Below, in pieces: positions 1-11,843 of a stretch of DNA of 64,000 bases. Below the pieces are notes generated by a model, which ran no database searches, was not told the DNA's origin, and saw only the letters and a program-made list of their open reading frames with translations. Position numbers and translations under genes: made by a program. Source of the stretch: Lysobacter sp. GTDB taxonomy: Bacteria; Pseudomonadota; Gammaproteobacteria; Xanthomonadales; Xanthomonadaceae. The stretch lies in contig WYBC01000029.1 of the NCBI GenBank assembly GCA_011526085.1, positions 1-64,000 on the forward strand. Reading direction: 5' to 3'. Numbering within the stretch: position 1 is the stretch's first letter; every line of letters starts with the position of its first letter.

Positions 1-113
1 TGCGCACCTTGCCAAGGCCACCAGCCTTGGCCGCGGCGCGCGCCTTGGCTCAGGCCCGCAGACGGCCTTCGCGGCATATGAAAAAGTACATAACACGCTC
101 TAGGAAGCCCGCC

Positions 114-1361
114 ATGCGCACCACGATTCCCGCACCGTTCGCCGGCCCGTTGTCGAGCGGGCTCATGCTCACCGTGCTCCTGTTCGCCGGTACGGCCCAT
201 GCCGCCGACAGCACGCAGGCCGCACGCAGGCTCGCGCGCGACGCGGTCATCGTCGACACCCATATCGACGCGCCGACCGAACTGCTGAAGGAATGGCGCG
301 ATCTGTCGGTCGCGCAGCCGCGCGAGTTCGATTTCCCGAAAGCGCGCGCCGGCGGCCTCGACGTGGCGTTCATGTCGATCTACACCTCACCCGGGCAGGA
401 CGACGACGGCAAGGCCTACGAGGTCGCCAACCGCATGATCGACGCGGTCGAGAAACTCGCGAACGAGAATCCCGACAAGTTCGCGCTGCTGCGCTCGCCG
501 CGCGATGTCGAGGCGCTGCGGCTGCTCGGGCTGGTGCTGCTGCCGCTGGGCATGGAGAACGGCGCGCCCATCGGCGGCGATCTGGCGAAGCTCAAGTATT
601 TCCACGGCCGCGGCGTGCGTTACATCACCCTCGCCCACAGCGCCAACAACCGCATCGCCGATTCGTCCTACGCCGCCGAAAAGAAATGGAAGGGCCTGAG
701 CCCGTTCGGCCGCGAGGTGGTCGCGGAAATGAACCGGCTGGGCATGATCGTCGACGTGTCGCACCTGTCCGACGACGCGGTCGCGCAGGCGGTCGACCTC
801 AGCCGCACGCCGGTGATGGCGACGCATTCGGCGTTCCGTCATTTCACCCCGGGCTTCGAGCGCAACCTGAGCGACGATCTGGCGAAGGCCATCGCCGCGA
901 AGGGCGGCGTGATCCAGATCCCGTTCGGCAACGCCTTCGTCGACCCGGCATCGGCCGCGAAGACCCAGGCCTATTTCGTCGCCTACGCCGAATACGAACG
1001 CGCGCGCAGCGCCGGCCGCACCACGCGGACGGTGGCCGAATTCGACGCCGAATGGGACCGCGACCATCCGCCGCTGCCGGTGAAGATCGACGCGGTGCTC
1101 GACCAGATCGACTACGGCGTGAAGCTGGTCGGGATCGATCACATCGGCATCGGCTCGGATTTCGACGGCGTGAGCGGCGCATTGCCGGAAGGGCTCAGGA
1201 CCGTGGCCGATTATCCGAACCTGATCGCCGGGCTGCAGGCCCGCGGCTACAGCGACAACGACATCCGCAAGATCCTCGGCGAGAACGCGCTGCGGGTGTG
1301 GCGCCGCGTGGAAGCGCACGCCGCGGAGCGCCGGGCCGCGCCGGCGGCGCAGGGCGACTGA
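114..1361 (+). CDS. Membrane dipeptidase (peptidase family M19), exported
   Basis: Zinc-dependent dipeptidase of the renal dipeptidase family, which cleaves dipeptides (some members take D-amino acids at the C-terminal side); here probably periplasmic. The 415-residue product starts with a signal peptide (about residues 1-30, ending AHA). Expected M19 metal ligands are visible: HxD in VDTHID near residue 50, Glu in GMENG, His in VDVSHLSD, His in ATHSAF, and the acidic GSDFDG near the C terminus. The ATG at 114 is chosen because AGGAAG lies just upstream and the signal peptide begins right after it; the frame is open further upstream but codes nothing signal-like. It stands 92 bp ahead of the five-gene operon on the same strand, so co-transcription is possible but unproven. 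Confidence 0.9.
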   Translation: MRTTIPAPFAGPLSSGLMLTVLLFAGTAHAADSTQAARRLARDAVIVDTHIDAPTELLKEWRDLSVAQPREFDFPKARAGGLDVAFMSIYTSPGQDDDGKAYEVANRMIDAVEKLANENPDKFALLRSPRDVEALRLLGLVLLPLGMENGAPIGGDLAKLKYFHGRGVRYITLAHSANNRIADSSYAAEKKWKGLSPFGREVVAEMNRLGMIVDVSHLSDDAVAQAVDLSRTPVMATHSAFRHFTPGFERNLSDDLAKAIAAKGGVIQIPFGNAFVDPASAAKTQAYFVAYAEYERARSAGRTTRTVAEFDAEWDRDHPPLPVKIDAVLDQIDYGVKLVGIDHIGIGSDFDGVSGALPEGLRTVADYPNLIAGLQARGYSDNDIRKILGENALRVWRRVEAHAAERRAAPAAQGD

Positions 1362-1380
1362 TCCCGATCCGACAAGCTGT

Positions 1381-1415
1381 CTTCATTCACCGGCATCCTT
1401 CATTCACCGGCATCC
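1381..1415. repeat. 17-bp tandem duplication ahead of the STM4015-like gene
   Basis: TTCATTCACCGGCATCC occurs twice back to back just upstream of the leucine-rich-repeat gene. It lies in the only sizeable spacer near the start of the operon, so it sits in the probable promoter or leader region. It may simply be a slipped-strand duplication. Confidence 0.7.
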
Positions 1416-1453
1416 AACGCATCGATCGCCGGATTCTTCTTTCCAGGACCCCC

Positions 1454-2377
1454 ATGACCGTCAACAACACCCAGGACCGCTATCTCGGCAAACCCGTCGT
1501 GGAATTCCGCATGGGCGACACCATCGCCGACCGCGACAGCGTGCGCACCCACGTCTACCGGTTGGCGCAGGATTACGATTCCAGCGAAAGCCAGCGCGAA
1601 CTGTTCGACGCCTTCCTCGCCCAGGTCGATGCCGCCGCCATCGAAGCGCTCATCATCGGCGCGTGGAGCGAAGCGCACGACACGTCGCCGCAGGAATACC
1701 TCGATGCGCTGATCGAGCGCCGCGCCGAACTGCCGGCGCTGCGCGCGCTGTTCGTCGGCGACATGACCTACGAGGACTGCGAGATCTCCTGGATCATCCA
1801 GACCGGCTACAACGCCCTGCTCGACGCCTTCCCGCAGTTACGTTCGCTGCGCATCCGCGGCAGCAGCGGGCTGGCGCTGGAAGCGTTCTCGCATGCCGCG
1901 CTCGAGGAACTGGCGATCGAATGCGGCGGCCTGCCAGCGGAGATCGTGGATGCGATCGCGGGCTCGACCCTGCCGGCGCTGCGTCGTCTGGAGCTGTGGC
2001 TCGGCGACGACAATTACGGTTTCGACGGCGACGTCTGGACCTACGCGCGCATGCTCGACGCCATCGACGCCTCGCGACTGGACTATCTCGGCCTGCGCGA
2101 CGCGCAGATCAGCGACGATCTCGCGAAACACCTGGCCGCGCAGCCGTGGCTGGGCAAGCTCAAGACTCTGGACCTGTCGATGGGCACGATCGGCGACGCG
2201 GGCGCGCAGGCGCTGTGCGAGTCGCCCTATCCCGGCACGCTGGAAACGCTGGACCTCAGCCATCACTACATCGGTGCCGAGTGGCAGGCGAAGCTGCGCG
2301 CGCTGCCCTGCAAGGTCGTGCTGGACGACCCGCAGGACGAGGACGACGGGGAACGCTACGTCGCCGTCGCCGAATGA
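1454..2377 (+). CDS. STM4015 family protein (leucine-rich-repeat-like)
   Basis: 307-residue protein with no signal peptide. The C-terminal two thirds show repeated leucine-rich segments (LEELAIECGG, LRRLELWLGD, LDYLGLRDAQIS, LKTLDLSMGTIG, LETLDLSHHYIG) like the ribonuclease-inhibitor/RNA1 style of LRR, which usually serves as a protein-binding surface. The N terminus (residues about 1-100) is acidic and helical. Family assignment comes from matching gene order and character of the Salmonella STM4015-like family; its biochemical role is unknown to me. The ATG at 1454 follows CCAGGA. It is the first gene of a five-gene operon in which the next start lies 21 bp after its stop. As the non-enzymatic member it could be a scaffold or the substrate of the neighbouring enzymes; that is inference. 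Confidence 0.8.
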   Translation: MTVNNTQDRYLGKPVVEFRMGDTIADRDSVRTHVYRLAQDYDSSESQRELFDAFLAQVDAAAIEALIIGAWSEAHDTSPQEYLDALIERRAELPALRALFVGDMTYEDCEISWIIQTGYNALLDAFPQLRSLRIRGSSGLALEAFSHAALEELAIECGGLPAEIVDAIAGSTLPALRRLELWLGDDNYGFDGDVWTYARMLDAIDASRLDYLGLRDAQISDDLAKHLAAQPWLGKLKTLDLSMGTIGDAGAQALCESPYPGTLETLDLSHHYIGAEWQAKLRALPCKVVLDDPQDEDDGERYVAVAE

Positions 2378-2398
2378 CGTCATGAGCGAAGTCGCCGG

Positions 2399-3580
2399 GT
2401 GAACAGGCGCGATCCGCGCATGGCGGTGTTCGGCACGTCCGGACATCGCCGGACACGACTGCTGCAGGCCGCGCTGCGTCGGCGCCGGCTCGGTCGCGCG
2501 GCCGTGTTCGACTACGGCACGGCGCTGTCGGAACGGCGTCCGATGCCGCCATTCGACGAGCGGGCTCCGTACACGGTGAAGCTCGATGCGCCGTCGCCGG
2601 ATGCGCGGCTGGATGTCGCCCTGATCCGTCGAGGCCGCGTCTGTCTCGGCCTCGATCCGGAGGCACCGCTCGACATCGAAGCCGGCGAACTCGCGCAGCG
2701 TCATGCGTGGCATGCGGGCTTCGCCGATCTGCTGCGCGGCATCGCGCGCGCTTGCGAAGCGACCGGGCCGGTGCGCTGGCTGAATCCGCCCGGCGATGTC
2801 CTGGACATGTGCGACAAATGGCGCTGTCAGCAGACGCTGGCCAACGCCGGCGTCGATATCCCGCCGCTGCTGGGCATGGTCGACGGCTACGCCCATCTGC
2901 AGCACCTGCTCGACGTCCATGGTTGCGATCAGGTGTTCGTGAAGGCGCGCTACGGGTCCGCGGCAGCCGGCGTGATCGCGTACCGGCGCCATCGCGATGG
3001 TCGGGAGATCGCACGGACCACGACCGAATGCGTCGTCGACCGCGGCGGCATCCGGCTGTTCAACCGCCTCGCGCCGCTGCGTTACGGCGAACGCGCGCGG
3101 ATCGCCGCGCTGATCGACGCGCTCGCCGCGCAAGGCTGCTACGCCGAAGCCTGGGTGCCGAAGCCGCGCGCCGCCGGGTCGCCGCGGCATCACTTCGACC
3201 TGCGGGTGATCGCGTTCGCGGGCGAACCGCGACAGCGCGTCGCGCGCATCGCCGGCACGCCGATGACCAACCTGCATCTCGGCAATCGCCGCGAAGATCC
3301 CGCGACGCTGCTCGACGCCGAAACGATGCATCGCGTCGAAACCACGGTGCGTGCCGCCGCGCGCGCGTTCTCCGGGAGCGCGTCGATCGGCTTCGACCTG
3401 ATCCCGACCCGCGACCGCTGCGTCGTGCTGGAAGCGAACGCGTTCGGCGATTTCGTGCAGCGCGCGCGCTGGCAGGGCGCGGACGCCTGCGACGATCAGG
3501 CCGCTTGGGTTGCGCGCGAACACGTCGCGGACGGGCTCGATGCCGTCGCGCAGACCGCACCGCGGCGGGCGCAGGCATGA
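2399..3580 (+). CDS. STM4014 family protein, ATP-grasp fold
   Basis: 393-residue protein whose C-terminal two thirds read as an ATP-grasp ligase: an N-P-P..D..DKWRC segment, the ATP-binding lysine in QVFVKARYGS followed by a small-residue loop, FDLRV, and the metal-binding EANAFGD near residue 355. ATP-grasp enzymes join a carboxylate to an amine or thiol via an acyl-phosphate; RimK-like members add amino acids to peptides and graspetide enzymes make cross-links. The start is GTG at 2399, touching the tail of the preceding spacer; an in-frame ATG at 2420 is equally plausible. It ends in an ATGA overlap with the next gene, so the two are translationally coupled. Substrate is unknown. Confidence 0.8.
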   Translation: MNRRDPRMAVFGTSGHRRTRLLQAALRRRRLGRAAVFDYGTALSERRPMPPFDERAPYTVKLDAPSPDARLDVALIRRGRVCLGLDPEAPLDIEAGELAQRHAWHAGFADLLRGIARACEATGPVRWLNPPGDVLDMCDKWRCQQTLANAGVDIPPLLGMVDGYAHLQHLLDVHGCDQVFVKARYGSAAAGVIAYRRHRDGREIARTTTECVVDRGGIRLFNRLAPLRYGERARIAALIDALAAQGCYAEAWVPKPRAAGSPRHHFDLRVIAFAGEPRQRVARIAGTPMTNLHLGNRREDPATLLDAETMHRVETTVRAAARAFSGSASIGFDLIPTRDRCVVLEANAFGDFVQRARWQGADACDDQAAWVAREHVADGLDAVAQTAPRRAQA

Positions 3581-4404
3581 GCGATACCGCGCCTCCCGTG
3601 CTCGACATGCACGCCATCGTCGGCAGCCACGACGTGCTGTTCATCACCCTCGACACCCTGCGTTTCGACGCCGCGCAGCGCTGCTTCGACGAAGGTCGCC
3701 TGCCCACGCTGTCCCGCCATCTGCCGGCGGGCGGCTGGGAGCGGCGGCACACGCCGGCCACGTTCACCTACGCCGCGCATCAGGCCTTCTTCGCCGGCTT
3801 CCTGCCCACGCCCGCGCGCCCGGGGCCGCATCCGCGGCTGTTCGCGCTGGCGTTCGCGGGCAGCGAAACCATCGACGCCAATACCTTCGTGTTTCCGGAT
3901 CATGCCGACATCGTCGGCGGCTTCGCGGCGCAGGGCTATCACACGCTGTGCATCGGCGGCGTCGGCTTCTTCAATCGCGCCAATCCGCTCGGCCGCGCGC
4001 TGCCGGATCTTTTCGCGGAAGCGCACTGGCGGCCCGCCTTCGGCGTGACCGCGCACGATTCGACCGACGCGCAGGTCGCGCTGGCGTGCGCGCGCCTGGT
4101 CGCGGACGATCTGCACGATCGGCGCTGCTTCACCTTCATCAACGTCTCCGCGCTGCATCAACCCAACCTGCACTACCTGCCGGGTGCGACCGAAGACGGT
4201 CTCGACAGTCATTGCGCCGCGCTGGCATACGTCGACCGCGCATTGGCGCCGCTGTTCGAAGCCGCGCGCCGACGCGCGCCGACCTTCGTCGTGATCTGCT
4301 CCGATCACGGCACCGCCTACGGCGAGGACGGCTATCGCGGCCATCGCCTCGCCCACGACGTGGTGATGCACGTGCCCTACGCCCATTTCCTGCTCGCGCC
4401 ATGA
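3577..4404 (+). CDS. STM4013/SEN3800 family hydrolase (alkaline phosphatase/sulfatase superfamily)
   Basis: 275-residue metal-dependent hydrolase, likely cytosolic (no signal peptide). Superfamily landmarks: an N-terminal metal-binding strand FITLDTLRFD, a nucleophile region TPATFTYAAHQAFFAG that aligns with the TP(S/T)..SH segment of sulfatases and phosphopentomutase-like enzymes, and the second metal site SDHGTAYGEDGYRGH near residue 245. It lacks the C/S-x-P-x-R sulfatase formylglycine motif, so a phosphatase, phosphodiesterase or phosphotransferase activity is more likely than sulfatase. Starts and ends in ATGA overlaps with its neighbours. In the operon it may hydrolyse or transfer a phospho group on the pathway product; this is inference. 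Confidence 0.8.
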   Translation: MSDTAPPVLDMHAIVGSHDVLFITLDTLRFDAAQRCFDEGRLPTLSRHLPAGGWERRHTPATFTYAAHQAFFAGFLPTPARPGPHPRLFALAFAGSETIDANTFVFPDHADIVGGFAAQGYHTLCIGGVGFFNRANPLGRALPDLFAEAHWRPAFGVTAHDSTDAQVALACARLVADDLHDRRCFTFINVSALHQPNLHYLPGATEDGLDSHCAALAYVDRALAPLFEAARRRAPTFVVICSDHGTAYGEDGYRGHRLAHDVVMHVPYAHFLLAP

Positions 4405-5771
4405 ACGCCCTCCCCGCGCAACCGTCGCTGGAATCGCTGCTGCGGATGCCGCCGTACCAGGCGTATTCGTATTCGTATCCGCACAAGACCGCCTATCGCG
4501 CGCTGCCCGGACCACGCGCGCTGCGGAATGTCTGGGCCGCGGAAGACCGCAGCGCGCTGTTCCTGTATCTGCACATCCCGTTCTGCTCGTACCGCTGCGG
4601 ATTCTGCAATCTGTTCACCCTGGCGCGGCCGTCGGCGGAAGCCGTCGAGCGCTATCTCGGCCAGCTCGACACCCAGCTCGCGGTCGCCATCGATGCGCTG
4701 GGCGAACATCGCTTCGCGCGGCTCGCGCTCGGCGGCGGCACGCCGAGCTATCTCGACACGGCGCAGTTGTCGCGGCTGTTCGACAGCCTGCGCCGCCGCG
4801 GCGTGGACGCGCGCGCGATGCCCTCCGGCATGGAGGTCTCGCCGGAGACGGTCGATGGCGACAAGATGGCGCTTTGCCGCGAGGCCGGCATCGACCGCAT
4901 CAGCATGGGCATCCAGAGTTTCAGCGACGCCGAAGTGCGCACGCTGGTGCGGCCGCAGCAGCGCGACGAGGTGGAACGCGCGATCGCGGCGATCCGCGCG
5001 CAGCGCTTCCCGACCCTCAACCTCGACCTGATCTACGGCATCCAGGGCCAGACCGTCGCAAGTTTCCTCGCGTCGATCGACAGCGCGCTCGCGTTCGCGC
5101 CGGAAGAACTCTATCTGTATCCGCTCTACGTGCGCCCGCTCACCGGGCTGGGGCGGATCGAAAGCCGCGACGGCCGGCCGCGGTTCGCGCTGCAGCCCGA
5201 GCCGCTGGACGCGCGGGCCGAGATGTACCGCGCGGGCCGCGATCGTCTGCTCGCCGCGGGCTACACGCAGGTGTCGATGCGGATGTTCCGCGCCGCGCAC
5301 GCGCCAGCGAACGATGCAGGCCCGGCCTACTGCTGCCAGGACGACGGGATGATCGGCATCGGCTGCGGCGCGCGTTCGTACACGCGGGCATTGCATTACT
5401 CCAGCGAATATGGGGTCTCGCGACGCAGCGTCGCCGCGATCCTCGACCACCACCTGTCGCTGACCGCGGAGGATTTCGCGCGGGTCGATCATGGCTTCGC
5501 GCTCGACGGCGACGAACAGCGGCGACGCTATGCGATCCAGTCGCTGCTGGTCTGGCCGGGGCTGGATCTCGCCGCATGGCGCGCGCGTTTCGGTACCGAT
5601 GCCTTCGACGATCTGCCGCAGCTCGCCGCGCTCGAACCGCTGGGTTTGGCGTCGCGAACGGATGCGCTCCTGGCGCTCACCGCATCGGGCATGGCCCGTG
5701 CGGATACCCTCGGGCCGTGGCTGATCTCGCCCGCGGTCGCCACGCGCATGGCCGCCTACGCGCCGCGCTGA
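4401..5771 (+). CDS. STM4012 family radical SAM protein (HemN-like)
   Basis: 456-residue radical S-adenosylmethionine enzyme. The [4Fe-4S] cluster motif is CSYRCGFCN (C-x3-C-x2-C) near residue 63, followed by the glycine-rich SAM motif LGGGTPSYL and the HemN-like segment RISMGIQSFSD. The C-terminal region resembles the HemW/HemN winged domain. HemW and HemN homologues handle heme or oxidise coproporphyrinogen; here the extended N terminus (MNALPAQ..YPHKTAYR) and operon context argue for a separate function. ATGA overlap with the preceding gene; the next start follows after 1 bp. The substrate is not known. Confidence 0.85.
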   Translation: MNALPAQPSLESLLRMPPYQAYSYSYPHKTAYRALPGPRALRNVWAAEDRSALFLYLHIPFCSYRCGFCNLFTLARPSAEAVERYLGQLDTQLAVAIDALGEHRFARLALGGGTPSYLDTAQLSRLFDSLRRRGVDARAMPSGMEVSPETVDGDKMALCREAGIDRISMGIQSFSDAEVRTLVRPQQRDEVERAIAAIRAQRFPTLNLDLIYGIQGQTVASFLASIDSALAFAPEELYLYPLYVRPLTGLGRIESRDGRPRFALQPEPLDARAEMYRAGRDRLLAAGYTQVSMRMFRAAHAPANDAGPAYCCQDDGMIGIGCGARSYTRALHYSSEYGVSRRSVAAILDHHLSLTAEDFARVDHGFALDGDEQRRRYAIQSLLVWPGLDLAAWRARFGTDAFDDLPQLAALEPLGLASRTDALLALTASGMARADTLGPWLISPAVATRMAAYAPR

Positions 5772-5772
5772 C

Positions 5773-6699
5773 ATGGACGCGCCCCGGGCCGCCATCGCAG
5801 CACTGGAATCCGATGCGCACACCGCGCCCGGACATCTGTCGCTGCTGTATCGCGGCCGCCTCAGCAGTTGCAACTACGACTGCGCCTACTGCCCGTTCGC
5901 GAAGACCCGCGACAGCCGCGCGACCCTGCAGCGCGACGCCGCCGATCTCGCGCGCTTCGTCGACTGGGCCGCGGCGCGGACGCAGCCGCTGTCGATCCTG
6001 TTCACGCCGTGGGGCGAAGGTCTGGTGCGCCGGCACTATCGCGAAGCGATGATCGCGCTGAGCCGCATGCCGCAGGTGCGACGGGTCGCGATCCAGACCA
6101 ATCTGTGCATCGGCACGCGCTGGCTCGATCGCGTCGACACCCGCAGTTTCGCGCTGTGGTGTACCTGGCATCCGAGCGAGGTCACGCTCGAGGTATTCGT
6201 CGCCCGCTGCCTGGAACTGCGCAGGCGCGGCATCCGCTTCAGCGTGGGCATGGTCGCGATGCGGGAATTGTTCGATCAGATCGAACGCCTGCGCGCGTCG
6301 CTGCCCGACGACGTGCCGATGTGGCTCAACGCCTACGATCAGCGGACGGCGGACTATTACGACGACGCGGACGTCGCGCGCCTGCTGCGCATCGATCCGC
6401 ATTTTGCTTACAGCCTGGCGCCGCCGCCGAGTCTGGGCGCGGCCTGCGCCACCGGCGAGTCGGTGCTGTCGGTGAATGGCGATGGCGACGTGCGCCGCTG
6501 TCATTTCGTGGACGCGCCGCTGGGGAATCTTTACGACGGCAGCTTCGCCGCGCGGCTCGGGCCGCGCCCCTGCCCGAACCGGGTCTGCGACTGTTTCATC
6601 GGCTACGTGCATCGGCGCGATCTGCCGTTCGCGCGCGATTACGCCGACGGACAACTGGAACGGGTGCCGGCGCGGCCGGGCGAATCGACGTCACGCTGA
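5773..6699 (+). CDS. STM4011 family radical SAM protein with C-terminal cysteine cluster
   Basis: 308-residue radical SAM enzyme with CNYDCAYC (C-x3-C-x2-C) near residue 33. The C terminus has additional cysteines (RRCHF, then PCPNRVCDCF, residues about 240-275) arranged like the auxiliary cluster region of SPASM/twitch radical SAM enzymes, which modify peptides or carbohydrates. The residues RFSVGMVAMRE and PMWLNAYDQ are typical core strands. Last gene of the five-gene operon, ending before a strong hairpin at 6745. Two radical SAM enzymes plus an ATP-grasp enzyme and a hydrolase in one operon suggests a biosynthetic pathway; no precursor peptide is obvious between the genes. Confidence 0.83.
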   Translation: MDAPRAAIAALESDAHTAPGHLSLLYRGRLSSCNYDCAYCPFAKTRDSRATLQRDAADLARFVDWAAARTQPLSILFTPWGEGLVRRHYREAMIALSRMPQVRRVAIQTNLCIGTRWLDRVDTRSFALWCTWHPSEVTLEVFVARCLELRRRGIRFSVGMVAMRELFDQIERLRASLPDDVPMWLNAYDQRTADYYDDADVARLLRIDPHFAYSLAPPPSLGAACATGESVLSVNGDGDVRRCHFVDAPLGNLYDGSFAARLGPRPCPNRVCDCFIGYVHRRDLPFARDYADGQLERVPARPGESTSR

Positions 6700-6744
6700 C
6701 GCCGGTAAATCCGGGACACCGCACTCGCGGATGTCCAGAAGCGC

Positions 6745-6768
6745 GAAACCCCGCCGGAGCGGGGTTTC
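6745..6768. terminator. Bidirectional terminator hairpin
   Basis: Perfect 9-bp stem GAAACCCCG/CGGGGTTTC with a 6-nt loop between the convergent STM4011-like gene and the bTHX gene. The A/T ends of the symmetric stem give a U-rich 3' side in both directions, so it can end both transcripts. Confidence 0.75.
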
Positions 6769-6791
6769 GATCAAGCGACGGACCGGTGCGG

Positions 6792-6980
6792 TCAGTCCTT
6801 GGCGGCGGTCTTCTTCGCGACAGCCTTCTTGGCGGGCGCCTTGGCGGCCGGCTTGGCAGCGGCCTTTTTCGCGGCCGGCACGGCGGCGCCGGCAACCGTC
6901 TTCACGGTGTGCGAACGGGCGTTGCCGTAGCTGGAGTTGTAGCGCTTGCCTTTGGCGGTCTTGCGGTCGCCTTTACCCAT
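6792..6980 (-). CDS. 30S ribosomal protein bTHX (THX) with Ala/Lys-rich tail
   Basis: 62-residue basic protein beginning MGKGDRKTAKGKRYNSSYG, the signature of the small ribosomal protein THX, which inserts into the head of the 30S subunit. After about residue 30 there is a low-complexity tail made of Ala, Lys and Pro (AAKPAAKAPAKK), as in histone-H1-like proteins; the classical Thermus protein is only about 26 residues. ATG at 6980 has an AGGAG site eight bases upstream; the frame is open further upstream but that extension has no coding character. Convergent with the preceding operon. Confidence 0.85.
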   Translation of the reverse strand: MGKGDRKTAKGKRYNSSYGNARSHTVKTVAGAAVPAAKKAAAKPAAKAPAKKAVAKKTAAKD

Positions 6981-7126
6981 GACGGACTCCTGAATCTGAT
7001 GGATGTGGATCTGAGGACTGGAATGCCCATGCGGGCGACCGGAGGACGCTGCACGGACCGAAAAACGGCCCCGACGCCGCCACTGGGGTGCGGGACGCGA
7101 GGCACGGGGTCGCAAAGCCTAGCAGA

Positions 7127-7552
7127 TCAGTGGGCGCAGGTCGCGTTGCAGGCGCCGGAATGGCCGAATTCGCGGTTGAGACGCAGATTGGCGAGATGCG
7201 CCAACGCCACCAGGCAACCGCCCAGCGTCATCGCCACCGCATGCGGCAATACCGAATGATGCAGCGGGGGGTACAGCACGCCGACCCAGACGATCAGCAG
7301 GCCCGGCACCAGCAACATCAGCGCATGCACGGCCCGGTGGCGGCGGTAGCCGGTGATCAGGGCGACGAGACCGAGCACGGTGGCGAAGACGGCGAAGCCT
7401 TCCTCGAAGTGCTCGTTGATCGAACCGGCCACGCCGAGCGCCGGCAGCAGCGCGATGACCACCGGCAACAGCGCGCAGTGCGCCGCGCACAGCATCGACG
7501 CGACGAATCCGACGCGATCGGCCTTGTGCAGGGTGGGAGCGGACTTGCGCAT
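7127..7552 (-). CDS. MerC domain-containing inner-membrane protein
   Basis: About 141-residue membrane protein with four predicted hydrophobic segments and MerC-type cysteines (MLCAAHCALLP in helix 1, and Cys residues at the very C terminus ACNATCAH). MerC family proteins carry mercuric ion in mer operons; chromosomal homologues next to ZnuD are thought to be linked to zinc. The start at 7552 (MRKSAP) is chosen over an ATG at 7585 because the latter lies inside a perfect TATAAT on this strand (7589-7584), which would place the transcript start downstream of it. Divergent from the TonB receptor gene, sharing a Zur-box-like sequence. Confidence 0.75.
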   Translation of the reverse strand: MRKSAPTLHKADRVGFVASMLCAAHCALLPVVIALLPALGVAGSINEHFEEGFAVFATVLGLVALITGYRRHRAVHALMLLVPGLLIVWVGVLYPPLHHSVLPHAVAMTLGGCLVALAHLANLRLNREFGHSGACNATCAH

Positions 7553-7578
7553 GACTTCCGGGGGGTGCGGATTGTTTT

Positions 7579-7596
7579 GAAACATTATAACATTTC
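7579..7596. promoter_or_regulatory. Zur-box-like operator and -10 in the MerC/ZnuD divergent promoter
   Basis: The imperfect palindrome GAAACATTATAACATTTC contains TATAACATTTC, identical to one half-site of the gammaproteobacterial Zur consensus (GAAATGTTATA-n-TATAACATTTC); the other half is degenerate. On the minus strand it holds a TATAAT -10 for the MerC-like gene, so Zn-Zur binding would block RNA polymerase there. Its position between a ZnuD-type receptor and a MerC-like gene, with zur 4 kb away, supports zinc control. Confidence 0.6.
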
Positions 7597-7626
7597 TTCG
7601 TCGTCCACCAGTGTACCCCCAAACCC

Positions 7627-9687
7627 ATGCCCGATTTCCTGCCTCCTGCTGCCGTCCGTCGCCTGCCCGCCCGCCACCGCCTGTTCACCGGCCTGACCCT
7701 GGCGCTGACCCTCGCGCTGCCCGGCCTCGTCGCCGCCCAGAACACCGACGGCAAAGATCCGCGTCACGACGAGGCGCAGGAGATCGACCGCATCGTCGTC
7801 AACGCCAGCCCGCTGCGGCAGACCGCCGAAGAACTCAGCCAGCCGGTCGAAGTGCTCAACGGCGAGCGTCTGGACCAGGCCAAGTCGGCCACCCTCGGCG
7901 AAACCCTCGACAAGGTGCCGGGCGTGCAGACCTCCAACTTCGGCGCCGGCGTCGGCCGCCCGATCATCCGCGGCCTCGATGGCCCGCGCGTCGGCGTGCT
8001 GTCCGGCGGCCTCGGCAGCCAGGACGTGTCGACCATCAGCCAGGATCACGCGACCGCGGTCGAACCCTTCCTCGCCGACCAGATCGAAGTGCTCAAGGGC
8101 CCGGCCACTCTGCTCTACGGCAGCGGCGCCATCGGCGGCGTCGTGAACGTCGTCGACGGCCGCATCGCCGAGCGTGCGCTGGACGAGACCGTCCGCGGTC
8201 GCGCGGAACTGCGCTACGACAGCGTCAACCAGGGCCGCACCGCGATGGCCCGCGTCGATGCCTCCGGCGCCGACGGCGCGCTGGTGCTGCACGCCGACGG
8301 TGTGTATCGCGACCAGGACGATTACGACACGCCAAACGGCAAGCAATCGAACAGCTTCGTCGAGACCCGCACCGGCGCGCTCGGCGCGTCGTACATCGGC
8401 GCGGACGGTTTCCTCGGCGTGTCGTTCTCGCGCTACGACAACCGCTACGGCAACCCCGGCGAGCCTGGCGATCCGGCCGCCGGCGAACCCGGCGTCTCGC
8501 TGGACATGCTGCAGAACCGCTTCGAACTGAAGGCGGGCGTGAACCGCGACTTCTGGATCTTCGACGGCCTGCGCCTCGGCTTCGCGCATACCGCGTACGA
8601 ACACACCGAGTTCGAGGGCACGGACATCGGCACGCGGTTCACCAACGACGCCGACGAAGGCCGCCTCGAACTCACCCACAAGGCCTTCGGCGCGTGGACC
8701 GGCGCGATCGGCCTGCAGTCCGCAGAGCGCGCATTCGAAGCGATCGGCGACGAGGCGTTCGTGCCGCGCACCAAGACCCGCTCGAACGGCCTGTTCTGGA
8801 TGGAGCACGGGCAGTGGGACGCCTTCCAGGTCGATCTGGGCGTGCGCGCCGACCGCGTGCGCACCGATGCCGCCGGCCTGCCGCGCCGCAGTTTCAGCCC
8901 GGTCAGCCTCTCGGCCGGCGCGCTGTGGCGTTTCAGCGATGCCTGGCGCCTCAGCCTCAACCTCGACCGCGCCGAACGCGCGCCGGCGGAAGAAGAGCTG
9001 TTCGCCGACGGCCCGCACGTCGCCACCGCGTCGTACGAAATCGGCGACTCGACCATGCGCGAGGAGCGCGCGGACCAGATCGAACTCGGCCTGCACTATC
9101 ACGGCGACCGCTTCGACGCGAAGGCTTCGGTCTATCACACCCGCTTCGACGGCTTCATCTATCTCGCCGAGACCGGCCTGTTCACGCCACCGGAACCGGG
9201 CGAGGATCCGCTGCCGATCCGGGTGTGGACGCAGGACGATGCGCGCTTCCGCGGCATCGAGGCGGAAGTGATCGCGCATCTGGTCGACAACGATCGCGGC
9301 AAGCTCGATCTGCGCGTGTTCGGCGATCACGTCCGCGGCGAACTCGACGGCCTGCCGTCCGGCACCGACCGCGACCTGCCGCGCATCGCTCCCTCGCGCT
9401 TCGGTCTGGACATGAACTGGGAAGCCGACCAGTGGCGCGCCGGCCTCGGCGCCACCCGCGTGCTGCGCCAGGACGATGTCGCCGCGGGCGAGAGCGAAAC
9501 CGCCGGCTATACCCTGGTCGACGCGCACTTCGCCTGGCATTGGGACACCGACAACTACGGTTGGGAAGTGTTCCTCGACGGCCGCAACCTCGGCGATGCC
9601 GATGCGCGCATCCACACCTCGTTCCTGAAGGACAACGTGCTGCTGCCCGGACGCAATTTCAGCGCCGGCGTCCGCCTGTTCTTCTGA
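7627..9687 (+). CDS. znuD: ZnuD-like TonB-dependent outer-membrane receptor
   Basis: 686-residue TonB-dependent receptor. Signal peptide about residues 1-38 (ending LVAAQ), then a plug domain with VLNGERLDQAKSATLGETL, VPGVQTSNFG, RPIIRGLDGPRVGVL and the EVLKGPATLLYGSGAIGGVVNV segment typical of ZnuD, followed by a 22-strand barrel ending in Phe (GVRLFF). ZnuD imports zinc across the outer membrane under Zur control. The long His-rich loop of neisserial ZnuD is not seen. No clear Shine-Dalgarno precedes ATG 7627; the transcript may be nearly leaderless. Zinc as substrate is inferred from family and from the Zur-like site upstream. Confidence 0.82.
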   Translation: MPDFLPPAAVRRLPARHRLFTGLTLALTLALPGLVAAQNTDGKDPRHDEAQEIDRIVVNASPLRQTAEELSQPVEVLNGERLDQAKSATLGETLDKVPGVQTSNFGAGVGRPIIRGLDGPRVGVLSGGLGSQDVSTISQDHATAVEPFLADQIEVLKGPATLLYGSGAIGGVVNVVDGRIAERALDETVRGRAELRYDSVNQGRTAMARVDASGADGALVLHADGVYRDQDDYDTPNGKQSNSFVETRTGALGASYIGADGFLGVSFSRYDNRYGNPGEPGDPAAGEPGVSLDMLQNRFELKAGVNRDFWIFDGLRLGFAHTAYEHTEFEGTDIGTRFTNDADEGRLELTHKAFGAWTGAIGLQSAERAFEAIGDEAFVPRTKTRSNGLFWMEHGQWDAFQVDLGVRADRVRTDAAGLPRRSFSPVSLSAGALWRFSDAWRLSLNLDRAERAPAEEELFADGPHVATASYEIGDSTMREERADQIELGLHYHGDRFDAKASVYHTRFDGFIYLAETGLFTPPEPGEDPLPIRVWTQDDARFRGIEAEVIAHLVDNDRGKLDLRVFGDHVRGELDGLPSGTDRDLPRIAPSRFGLDMNWEADQWRAGLGATRVLRQDDVAAGESETAGYTLVDAHFAWHWDTDNYGWEVFLDGRNLGDADARIHTSFLKDNVLLPGRNFSAGVRLFF

Positions 9688-9748
9688 GCATGCTTCTTTT
9701 GAGCACGTTCTTCTGAGCGTGTTCTTCTAAGCGTGTTCTTCTGATCGT
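9677..9748. repeat. Tandem degenerate 14-15-bp repeat spanning the znuD stop codon
   Basis: Five imperfect copies of TGTTCTTCTGAGCG run from the last codons of the TonB receptor (Leu-Phe-Phe-stop) into the spacer. Several copies carry an in-frame-looking TGA or TAA. The repeat looks like local expansion of the gene end. Confidence 0.75.
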
Positions 9749-9789
9749 CACATCCGGTCGCCACACTGCGCGACCGACACGGCGCCCCC

Positions 9790-9842
9790 GCACCCGCCGC
9801 ACCGCTGTCCACTCTCTCCCGGACAGCGACTGCGGCGGGTGC
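9790..9842 (+). terminator. Long GC-rich stem-loop downstream of znuD
   Basis: Arms 9790-9810 and 9821-9842 pair over about 20 bp with one small internal mismatch (GCACCCGCCGCA..CGCTGTCC), closing a 10-nt loop. It is followed only by ACTTTCAT, so it is a weak U-tract; it may terminate or protect the receptor mRNA. The whole 9688-10014 spacer otherwise holds only the tandem repeat and the leader of the MFS gene. Confidence 0.55.
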
Positions 9843-10014
9843 ACTTTCATGCGCGCCGGGCCCATGGCCCGCGATGGAACACTGCAACGGCACCGGCAAC
9901 GCTTGCAGCCGCGGCCGCGGCATGGGTTGATGACGGCCCTGCTCCCCGCGATTCCGCACGTATGCCTGGCTCCATTCAACAGTCCAGCGACCGTCGTCGG
10001 TCGCGGTTTTTCGC

Positions 10015-11253
10015 ATGAACGACACCGCGCAGCCGGCGGCGATGCCCCGTTACTGGCCGCTGGTCATCGCCGCGACCGCAACCCTGCTGGTCACGATGGG
10101 CATCCGCCAGTCGCTGGGCCTGTTCGTGCGCCCGATCGGCGCCGACACCGGGCTGGGCATCGCCGAGATCAGTCTCGCGCTCGCGGTCGGACAGTTCGTC
10201 TGGGGTGCGGTGCAACCGTTATTCGGCGCGCTCGCCGACCAGCGCGGGCCGGGCCGCGTGCTGGTCGCAGGTGGTCTGCTGCTGGTCGTCGGCACCGCGC
10301 TCACGCCGTGGCTGGCATCGTCGCCGATGGGCCTGATGTTCGGTCTCGGCGTACTCGTCGCGGCCGGCGCGGGCGCGGGCAGCTTTTCGATCCTGATCGG
10401 CGCCACCGCGCGTCATGTCCCGCTGCAGAAGCGCTCGATGGCGGCCGGCGTGATCAACGCCGGCGGCTCACTCGGGCAATTCCTGTTCGCGCCGTTCGTG
10501 CAGGCGACGATCGCGGCCTTCGGCTGGGCCGCCGCCATGTGGGCGCTGGCGGTTTCGGCGCTGGCCACGCTGCCGCTGGCCTGGCCGCTGCGTCGGCGCG
10601 AGGCGCCCGCGGTCGTGCAGGCCGCCGACAAGGACAGCGGGCTGCGCGCGCAGTTGGCCGTCGCCCTGCGCGACCGCAGCTACTGGTGCCTGCATATCGG
10701 CTTCTTCACCTGTGGCTTCCACATCGCGTTCCTGGTGACCCATCTGCCGACCGAGATCGCGCTCTGCGGCCTGCCCGACAGCGTGTCGGCGATGTCGCTG
10801 GCGCTGATCGGCCTGTTCAACGTCGCGGGCAGTCTCGCCGCGGGCTGGCTGGGCGGCCGCTATCGCATGAAATACCTGCTGGCGCTGATGTACGCCAGCC
10901 GCGCGGCGATGGTCGCGATCTATCTGGCCTCGCCGCCGACGCCGATCGTCTTCTACGCGTTCGCCGCGGGCCTGGGCCTGACCTGGCTGGCGACGGTGCC
11001 GCCCACCGCCGGTCTGGTCGGCAAACTGTTCGGCCCGCGCTATCTGGGCACGCTGTTCGGGCTCACCCTGCTGTCGCACCAGATCGGCGGATTCGCCGGC
11101 GCGTGGCTCGGCGGCCTGGCGATGGAGCGCTTCGGCGATTACACGTGGATGTGGTACGCCGACATCGTGCTGGCGCTGCTGGCGGCGGCGGCGAATCTTC
11201 CGATCCGCGAGGCGCGGGTGATGCCGGCGCCCGCGTCGGCGTCGGCGCGCTGA
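10015..11253 (+). CDS. MFS transporter
   Basis: 412-residue polytopic protein with about 12 hydrophobic segments and major facilitator features: GIRQSLGLFVRPI in the first helix region, the A-motif-like segment LADQRGPGRVLV between helices 2 and 3, and a central charged loop near residues 195-220. The family includes oxalate/formate-type and YbfB/monocarboxylate transporters; substrate cannot be read from sequence. It lies between a ZnuD receptor and zur, but no Zur-like site was found in front of it, so a zinc role is not supported. Confidence 0.85.
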   Translation: MNDTAQPAAMPRYWPLVIAATATLLVTMGIRQSLGLFVRPIGADTGLGIAEISLALAVGQFVWGAVQPLFGALADQRGPGRVLVAGGLLLVVGTALTPWLASSPMGLMFGLGVLVAAGAGAGSFSILIGATARHVPLQKRSMAAGVINAGGSLGQFLFAPFVQATIAAFGWAAAMWALAVSALATLPLAWPLRRREAPAVVQAADKDSGLRAQLAVALRDRSYWCLHIGFFTCGFHIAFLVTHLPTEIALCGLPDSVSAMSLALIGLFNVAGSLAAGWLGGRYRMKYLLALMYASRAAMVAIYLASPPTPIVFYAFAAGLGLTWLATVPPTAGLVGKLFGPRYLGTLFGLTLLSHQIGGFAGAWLGGLAMERFGDYTWMWYADIVLALLAAAANLPIREARVMPAPASASAR

Positions 11254-11271
11254 CCGACAGGTTCCGACGCC

Positions 11272-11772
11272 TCAGCCGGCCTGCACGCAGCGCGCGCAGA
11301 GCCCGTGCACTTCCAGGGTCTGCGCCTGCGGCACGAAACCGAGCGCGCGCGCTTTTTCGTCGAGCAGCGCGACGATGCGCTCGTCTTCCAGTTCCACCGC
11401 GCTGTGGCAGCGGTCGCAGATGAGGAACGGCACCGAATGCTGCGCGGTGCTCGGGTGGTGGCAGGCGACGAACGCGTTGACGGATTCGAGCTTGTGGATG
11501 AAGCCGTTGGCGAGCAGGAAATCCAGCGCGCGGTAGACGGTCGGCGGCGCGGCAGCGCCCGCGCTGTCCTCGTCCTCGAGTTTGTCGGTGCGGATACGGT
11601 CGAGCAGATCGTAGGCCTTGATCGGCCGGCCCTGCGCGGCGATCAGGGTCAGCACCTTGGTGCGGATCGGGGTGAGCCGCAGGCCGCGCTCGTGGCAGGC
11701 ATGTTCGACCGCCGCCACGAAGCTGGACGCATCGTGGACGTGGTGCGAAGGGTCGGTGCAGTCGTGGGCCAT
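11272..11772 (-). CDS. zur: Zinc uptake regulator Zur (Fur family)
   Basis: 166-residue Fur-family repressor. Winged helix with RLTPIRTKVLTLIA and PTVYRALDFLLANGFIHKL; metal and dimer region with HHPSTAQH, LICDRCHSAVELED, and the C-terminal CARC. The two CxxC pairs are the structural zinc site. Start taken at ATG 11772; the frame also offers a TTG at 11823 that would add a His-rich stretch (HRHHHPH), so the longer form is possible. Lies downstream of gltX on the same strand with a 71-bp gap. Zur with Zn represses zinc-import genes; the divergent MerC/znuD promoter 3.7 kb away is a likely target. Confidence 0.85.
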   Translation of the reverse strand: MAHDCTDPSHHVHDASSFVAAVEHACHERGLRLTPIRTKVLTLIAAQGRPIKAYDLLDRIRTDKLEDEDSAGAAAPPTVYRALDFLLANGFIHKLESVNAFVACHHPSTAQHSVPFLICDRCHSAVELEDERIVALLDEKARALGFVPQAQTLEVHGLCARCVQAG

Positions 11773-11843
11773 GTGCGGATGATGGTGCCGGTGCGGGGCG
11801 GACTCAAGCGAGCGATGCCGCAAGCGCGTTCAGGATCGCGTGC

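Follow-up and report, generated by a model that had tools for sequence, protein, structure and literature searches.

A conserved five-gene unit from Lysobacter sp. as a candidate system for modifying the C-terminus of a leucine-rich repeat protein

Organization of the operon

The stretch of Lysobacter sp. DNA analysed here (contig WYBC01000029.1, positions 1 to 64,000; referred to as the window) carries near its 5' end an operon of five genes belonging to the families STM4015 to STM4011, which encode a leucine-rich repeat (LRR) protein, an ATP-grasp enzyme, a metallohydrolase and two radical S-adenosylmethionine (SAM) enzymes (Table 1), and which we propose as a candidate system for modifying the C-terminal tail of the LRR protein. 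The extent and the five gene assignments given in a preliminary description, made from the sequence alone, were confirmed, as all five proteins exceeded the cut-offs of their NCBIfam models (bits/cut-off: STM4015 313.8/275, STM4014 291.8/175, STM4013 389.8/250, STM4012 568.4/380, STM4011 374.2/200). Three of these models are typed as hypothetical equivalogs, one as subfamily and one as equivalog, and as to function their names say no more than 'family protein', 'hydrolase' or 'radical SAM protein'. The gene order equals that of annotated Salmonella records, again as described. What had been called three ATGA or near-overlaps are two true ATGA overlaps (3577/3580 and 4401/4404) and one near case, a 1-nt gap between STM4012 and STM4011 (5771/5773); STM4015 and STM4014 are separated by 21 nt. 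The base composition is even (GC 67-72% over window positions 1-7000), and scans for promoters and terminators gave no signal above chance.

Table 1. Features of the operon and of neighbouring or related regions. Positions without prefix refer to the window; L numbers are our locus numbers for other records.
Feature	Position	Strand	Description
STM4015-family LRR protein	1454..2377	+	ATG start, 307 aa; NCBIfam NF038076, LRR_6; proposed substrate
Acidic linker and conserved C-terminal tail of STM4015	2336..2374	+	Residues 295-307, ...DEDDGERYVAVAE-COOH
STM4014-family RimK/LysX-type ATP-grasp ligase (predicted)	2399..3580	+	393 aa; start GTG 2399 or ATG 2420; NF038074
STM4013-family metallohydrolase, alkaline phosphatase/sulfatase superfamily (predicted)	3577..4404	+	275 aa; NF038075
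STM4012-family HemN-like radical SAM enzyme with HemN_C domain	4401..5771	+	456 aa; NF006067
STM4011-family radical SAM enzyme with SPASM-like Cys-rich C-terminus	5773..6699	+	308 aa; NF038073
Peptidase M19 (membrane dipeptidase) gene	9..1361	+	Directly 5' of the operon
Small basic open reading frame	6792..6980	-	MGKGDRKTAKGKRYNSSYGNAR...; which we take to resemble ribosomal protein THX
Presumed MerC-like, TonB-receptor, major facilitator superfamily (MFS) and Fur-family genes	7127..11823		In a row; perhaps a zinc-uptake neighbourhood
DUF6745 genes adjoining the operon	L068, L077, L079, L080, L082, L083, L090, L097, L098, L099, L105
DUF6745 genes in annotated regions (3 of 8)	L143:8243-9552; L144:1683-3008; L147:8216-9537
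HAD-family hydrolase genes adjoining the unit	L058-L062, L064-L066, L087:5395-6195; L142:8084-8818		In myxobacterial loci, one Planctomycete and Salmonella
Short tail repeats 3' of STM4015	L106:450-555; L108:4757-4802		Cyanobacteria; DRYYSVWE, DRYSALHE
WD40-like protein gene	L106:640-1860		Starts with REFDAVLGGE-type N-terminal module
Lone STM4012-family gene	L146:5944-7326		Streptomyces sp. SAT1 plasmid

Distribution and linkage

A scan of genome contigs with STM4012 returned 143 relatives, and the best 80 of these were analysed together with the window (81 loci), using profiles built from the window proteins for the family calls. STM4013 and STM4012 were present in all 81 loci, STM4011 in 78, STM4014 in 75 and STM4015 in 74. 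The genomes of the seven loci without STM4015 were searched as well: a strong match (E about 1e-65 or better) lay elsewhere in six of them, and the genome of L070 gave none; four other genomes included in the same search all had matches. The unit recurs in Proteobacteria, Myxococcota, Cyanobacteria, Planctomycetes, Actinobacteria, Deinococcota, Bacillota and Chloroflexi, and the full set was found in annotated records of Salmonella, Deinococcus, Methylobacterium and Paenibacillus; in the Embleya record the unit is unannotated, all five families being recovered by profile. The earlier assumption of a conserved unit across gammaproteobacteria thus holds for the unit and was too narrow in its scope, since many phyla possess it. 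An unbroken run from STM4015 to STM4011 occurs in 38 of the 81 loci, the remainder being variants, edges and splits, and in 68 of 75 loci STM4014 is immediately preceded by STM4015 on the same strand. In myxobacterial loci and in two Planctomycetes loci the unit is split into STM4015-STM4014 and STM4013-STM4012-STM4011 on opposite strands.

Linkage is also seen among 149 genomes of the window's family, where 14 carry STM4012 over its cut-off and the same 14 carry STM4015 (lists compared by eye). The pair lies on one contig in every case, about 3.5 kb or less apart, and all six genomes of the window's genus in this draw are among the 14. In a draw of 274 genomes from the class, a match to STM4015 above 150 bits occurred in three and one over the cut-off in a single genome. 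The unit is therefore tightly linked, patchy and broad in its occurrence. The preliminary description had seen here a conserved unit of families without assigned function, which recurrence and linkage across genomes support; it had named unlinked families as a finding that would speak against such a unit, and in this draw the two genes occurred together in 14 of 14 genomes.

Three records deserve separate mention. A plasmid of Streptomyces sp. SAT1 carries an STM4012-family gene alone, with caspase and tetratricopeptide repeat genes close by; the other four families are absent within the 13.3 kb around it. The operon of L058, from a record titled Comamonas sp. KCTC 72670, groups with Myxococcus loci, and the record is possibly mislabelled; the locus was counted with the myxobacterial ones. 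Two Salmonella records filed as plasmid and phage (L142, L149) have typA, glnA and glnL next to the unit and look like misfiled chromosomal contigs, so that a mobile origin in Salmonella was discarded and no claim is built on them.

The C-terminal tail of STM4015

The conserved C-terminal tail of STM4015 is a new observation of this work. We aligned 111 distinct copies (at least 140 bits and at least 250 amino acids, distinct by their last 200 residues), which included those of ten loci named by hand out of 34 extra loci; unlinked LRR genes were kept out as controls. The alignment displays conserved LRR columns in the body, a gapped linker of low information and then the tail, typically R-Y-x-A-V-x-E-COOH behind a variable acidic stretch. 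Ranking the 330 aligned columns by conservation placed Y302 3rd, R301 14th and E307 19th, and the linker columns 295-300 between 137th and 277th. A final Glu is present in 108 of the 111 copies, the other three ending in Y, S and D, and in 104 copies the last residues match the loose motif [YFWV]-x-x-[VLI]-x-E; 45 distinct 7-mers occur. Among the seven misfits three are related (RYVLNGE, RYESSGE, YYVSASE) and one runs past the motif. A strict form of the motif was found in 90 of 107 STM4015 open reading frames (ORFs) vs 1 of 17,756 other ORFs, and this single case is an out-of-frame duplicate of a tail. All seven further copies (Salmonella, three from Deinococcus, Methylobacterium, Paenibacillus and Embleya) end in Glu, and distant gammaproteobacterial copies end YVSVGE, YVSASE or YTSVGE.

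Other LRR proteins served as controls. Neither the loose motif nor a final Glu occurred in any of 15 distinct complete proteins from weak-hit LRR genes of the class genomes (25 loci, one without a hit and nine cut by an edge or repeats), and the motif was likewise missing from all eight distinct LRR genes located outside the cluster in four genomes, those of L058 and of three Myxococcus, though two of the eight end YVRE. A DNA pattern for the tail matched once in the window's own genome, in the STM4015 gene, and 25 times in 18 other genomes, where 22 matches were ends of STM4015 ORFs; the remaining three were a tail remnant beside an STM4015 gene (L165), a match on another contig (L181) and one ending in TGG instead of a stop (L171). 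In the 104 tailed copies the Glu codon is GAG in 72 and GAA in 32, Arg is encoded by five different codons, and each of the three stops occurs. As synonymous codons vary and three stops occur, selection acts on the protein, and an artefact of gene overlap, with the stop lying over the next start, could be rejected. The latter was also ruled out by the gene order, as 27 of the 94 tailed copies with a core gene downstream precede STM4015 (24) or STM4011 (3) and not STM4014. As a separate observation, two cyanobacterial loci carry short tail repeats just 3' of STM4015, which may be decayed copies or tail duplications.

Two to four STM4015 copies above 140 bits occur in 19 of the 74 loci that have the family, the enzymes being encoded once, apart from two genes that look split. 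Outside the tail, the median identity between paralogues of one locus is 50%; at the four key tail positions, 27 of 37 paralogue pairs agree in three or four. Many substrates per enzyme set are the pattern expected if STM4015 is modified, and the earlier suggestion that the LRR protein might be a substrate is the reading now favoured by the tail evidence. A scan of 38 of the 59 long STM4015 ORFs, mostly cyanobacterial and myxobacterial, revealed a WGR domain in 18 and a HEAT-like match in six (E 0.001). In cyanobacterial STM4015 a REFDAVLGGE-type module precedes the LRR domains, and the same type of module starts a protein encoded at L106 that is WD40-like in our own reading.

Short motifs at a C-terminus whose carboxylate is free commonly serve for docking, and the tail of STM4015 might be a docking or recognition tag only, with the LRR protein as a scaffold recruiting enzymes that act on another protein or a small molecule. 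Body columns as conserved as the tail (W182, P174, P127 and H147 are in the top five) would suit such a scaffold. We nevertheless consider this unlikely, as several diverged STM4015 proteins per single enzyme set are expected of substrates rather than of one scaffold, and as the ligases with the folds nearest to STM4014 include two that act on protein C-termini. The tail itself is probably the site of action.

Families, predicted folds and conserved residues of the enzymes

For STM4014 a profile search of the PDB gave LysX first and RimK next, both over a partial domain and with modest E-values (2.6e-4 at best), and the Pfam RimK domain barely passes its cut-off (23.2/21). The AlphaFold2 model (mean predicted local distance difference test, pLDDT, 92.8) had structures of LysX/ArgX, RimK and PsnB as its first 33 Foldseek matches, with template modelling (TM) scores by target length of 0.55-0.79. 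These neighbours include a LysX/ArgX structure with LysW-gamma-AAA, a RimK structure with RpsF, and PsnB with a precursor peptide. The EANAFGD motif noted in the preliminary description is present, and K175, K248, R276, N284, E338 and N340 (numbered from ATG 2420) are invariant in 35 of 35 sequences. The catalytic positions are mostly kept in Salmonella, Paenibacillus, Methylobacterium and Deinococcus, with Asp replacing the Glu of E-x-N in Paenibacillus.

STM4013 matches the Pfam Sulfatase family (PF00884, 32.7/25), and the metal-ligand residues expected for the superfamily, already noted earlier, are present, with D26, T27, T64, D243, H244, H256 and H260 invariant in 36/36. By their titles, all 50 Foldseek matches listed for the model (pLDDT 90.6) belong to the alkaline phosphatase/sulfatase superfamily (TM by query 0.48-0.61). 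Sequence, predicted fold and predicted metal ligands thus agree in placing STM4013 in this superfamily. The dephosphorylation that had been ascribed to it is one option only.

Both radical SAM motifs, CSYRCGFCN and CNYDCAYC, are present as described. STM4012 has a HemN_C domain (25.3/24), aligns with residues 14-429 of HemN (1olt; E 8.8e-51) and with 25-306 of NocN, and keeps C62, C66 and C69 in 35/35 sequences, as well as C312 in a CCQDDGM region of its own (35/35). The extensive match to HemN could indicate that STM4012 and STM4011 perform housekeeping haem or cofactor synthesis, their linkage to the LRR gene being incidental, and coproporphyrinogen oxidation had been named as a role that would speak against a dedicated system. 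However, STM4012 falls below the equivalog cut-offs of HemN (TIGR00538, 132.6/324.95) and HemW (TIGR00539, 143.2/205.4), and below that of HutW; other HemN-like homologues are encoded elsewhere in the genome. Some HemN-like match exists in 147 of the 149 family genomes vs STM4012 over its cut-off in 14, the 14 with STM4015. The housekeeping reading is already disfavoured, and we regard it as extremely improbable. In STM4011 the CxxxCxxC cysteines C33, C37 and C40 are invariant in 29/29 aligned sequences, and so are the extra C-terminal cysteines pointed out before (C225, C243, C267, C272 and C274). The Pfam SPASM model (PF13186) scores 16.3 bits vs a gathering threshold of 21.5, and a weak match to SkfB was found (E 0.085).

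Anti-phage defence was tried as a function and rejected: a PADLOC scan of seven proteins gave as sole match STM4012 to PDC-M51A (30.3 bits), an entry without description.

Neighbouring genes

Flanks were compared by clustering ORFs of at least 80 amino acids within the regions retrieved, the top of the cluster lists being inspected. No protease, peptidase or exporter family common to the phyla was seen in them, and no precursor-like ORF of this size accompanies the unit across phyla, shorter ORFs lying outside the comparison. As for a short precursor like that of graspetides, the genes inside the window operon abut. The short conserved precursor ORF for which the preliminary description had suggested searching is not required, as the precursor-like part would be the C-terminal tail of the LRR protein itself.

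These flanks bear on two alternatives in which a product is released. In the first, STM4015 is a LysW-like carrier: STM4014 loads an amine metabolite, the other enzymes convert it in bound form and a small molecule is set free. The nearest predicted folds of STM4014 are LysX/ArgX, including the structure solved with LysW-gamma-AAA, and, in the available part of PMC10433800, LysX attaches its substrate to LysW at the gamma-carboxyl of the last residue, the acceptor Glu of an EDWGE end; the acidic linker and final Glu of STM4015 are alike. The M19 dipeptidase gene directly upstream in seven of 81 loci could encode a releasing enzyme there. Against this, those seven are the window and six near relatives, all Lysobacterales loci, no peptidase common to phyla was seen, and STM4015 is an LRR protein with diverged paralogues, unlike the small LysW. 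The EDWGE end of the LysX/LysW carrier is absent, and STM4014 as read is without the ligase motif GSWGR. We rate a carrier pathway as rather unlikely. The second alternative is a ribosomally synthesized and post-translationally modified peptide (RiPP) route, with the LRR protein as a giant leader and the tail as a core that is cross-linked and then cut off as the peptide product. Two radical SAM enzymes, one with invariant auxiliary cysteines, and the PsnB structure with precursor peptide among the fold neighbours would fit. It appears highly unlikely, as neither a protease nor an exporter family common to phyla was seen, the core would comprise about seven residues without a conserved Cys, Ser/Thr or Lys partner, and the precursor would be a repeat protein of about 300 amino acids.

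A DUF6745 protein adjoins the operon in 11 of 81 loci (by clustering; three confirmed with Pfam). In nine of these 11, and in all three annotated regions with DUF6745, it is accompanied by a His-containing protein of about 100 amino acids (M..RxGD[VI]..GHSHR...H[DE]EH). The two may be sixth and seventh components in Actinobacteria, Chloroflexi, Planctomycetes, Deinococcota and Methylobacterium. A search of the window's genome gave no DUF6745 match, a weak negative since control genomes gave none either, and a full-text literature search on DUF6745, with subscription papers mostly outside its reach, returned nothing. The C-terminus of DUF6745 is itself conserved, mostly as YxPxxET or similar; a tail common to STM4015 and DUF6745 was considered and dropped, as the ends are mostly YxPLxET, YxPxxQT and YxPAxEA and do not keep the final-Glu pattern. 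HAD-family hydrolase genes adjoin the unit in myxobacterial loci, a Planctomycete and Salmonella, the Salmonella gene overlapping STM4011.

Proposed pathway

From the linkage of the genes, the conserved tail, the paralogue pattern and the predicted folds with their kept catalytic residues, we lean towards the operon being a C-terminal protein-modification system, in which STM4015 is the substrate, STM4014 forms an amide at the terminal Glu and the other three enzymes finish on the tail. The protein- or peptide-modifying logic of the preliminary description is thereby retained. The substrate would begin with an LRR domain, extended N-terminally in some lineages by a WGR or HEAT-like part; a flexible acidic linker would follow, and then an exposed tail with terminal glutamate. 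STM4014 would activate a carboxylate of this Glu with ATP and couple it to an amino acid, or a similar compound, through the latter's amine; we commit to this step because amide formation at the terminal Glu is the closest precedent for a RimK-type ligase encoded beside a protein with a flexible acidic end. HemN-like STM4012 and SPASM-like STM4011 would then act by radical chemistry, either on the tail or on the group attached to it, and the chances that both act at the tail seem to us evenly balanced. That STM4012 attacks the side chain of the terminal Glu, a propionate like that of the HemN substrate, is improbable. STM4013 might remove or transfer a phosphate- or sulfate-type group, a role we assign with considerable doubt. 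The split into STM4015-STM4014 and STM4013-STM4012-STM4011 agrees with an order in which the protein is modified first and the remaining three enzymes act afterwards.

The product would remain attached to the LRR protein within the cell, and the LRR part would decide what the modified tail meets. We prefer retention to release, since the LRR parts are diversified and no peptidase or exporter shared across phyla was seen in the flanks, and we hold it tentatively, at somewhat less than even chance. A further and more speculative step, for which we would claim only a minor probability, is an 'address plus warhead' class, in which one enzyme set arms a common tail and diversified LRR, WGR-LRR or HEAT-LRR repeats carry the group to different targets.

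Several observations weigh against this scheme. The tail is not absolute, as seven of 111 copies lack the loose motif and three the final Glu, at least one copy counted with the motif is doubtful (FNQIYE, L094), and the Salmonella (IYMNAMYTE) and Methylobacterium (RSIAVSE) tails depart from it. The reversed control pattern gave seven matches in the 18 genomes, and a conserved tail could also signal docking or degradation. The distances in the five families correlate with one another at 0.74-0.92, uncorrected for the species tree. Regarding STM4014, identity in the first 33 Foldseek matches is 12-20%, and DcsG, PPIP5K2 and Ddl (D-Ala-D-Ala ligase), which do not act on proteins, follow closely; the score against the RimK family TIGR00768 is 17.7 bits at a cut-off of 143.4, and the GSWGR loop of LysX is not kept, positions 179-184 reading mostly GS-S/A-A/G-S/A-G. 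Retention in particular is opposed by the M19 gene in seven loci mentioned above, by ABC-ATPase-type ORFs in four of 81 loci and by MFS genes beside the unit in Salmonella and Paenibacillus.

With the proposed modification system, five hypothetical families across many phyla, Salmonella included, gain a testable hypothesis, namely that the LRR protein serves as substrate and is modified at its last residue. If true, the C-terminal-Glu chemistry of RimK and LysX would occur on a repeat protein as well, in combination with two radical SAM enzymes, and the 'address plus warhead' idea would, if correct, define a widespread and undescribed class of intracellular proteins.

Comparison with known systems

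A full-text literature search on the locus names and domain combinations, the latter giving at best loosely matching papers, found no description of the system's function, a weak negative as subscription papers were mostly outside the search. In the parts available, PMC3844500 and PMC2784778 each name one of the loci once, in a table, and PMC11964587 holds the model name PRK08208.

With HemN, HemW and class C radical SAM methyltransferases such as NocN, STM4012 shares the alignments and the HemN_C domain described above. It differs from them in scoring below the HemN, HemW and HutW cut-offs, in its CCQDDGM region and in its genomic partners. Graspetides and other RiPPs resemble the unit in combining an ATP-grasp enzyme, PsnB being among the nearest folds, with a Cys-rich radical SAM enzyme, and SPASM enzymes are frequent partners at graspetide loci according to the accessible text of PMC8939145, whose main text is free of the terms leucine-rich, LRR, WGR, HemN and sulfatase. 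The unit differs in that no exporter family or precursor-like ORF of at least 80 amino acids was seen with it across phyla.

RimK is an ATP-grasp ligase that glutamylates the C-terminus of ribosomal protein S6 (RpsF), as stated in the available sections of PMC7343187 and PMC11957791; here, too, a ligase modifies a protein C-terminus, and STM4014 belongs to the same fold group. The differences lie in the score of STM4014 far below the RimK family cut-off, in a proposed substrate that is not a ribosomal protein and in the additional enzymes. The LysX/LysW (ArgX/ArgW) system has the RimK-type ATP-grasp fold nearest to that predicted for STM4014, and its partner protein, from what is accessible of PMC10433800, has a terminal Glu behind an acidic stretch, as has STM4015. 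By the same source, LysW has zinc-binding cysteines and an EDWGE end, and its ligases have GSWGR. In contrast, the operon described here combines an LRR protein usually ending RYxAVxE and a different STM4014 loop with two radical SAM enzymes.

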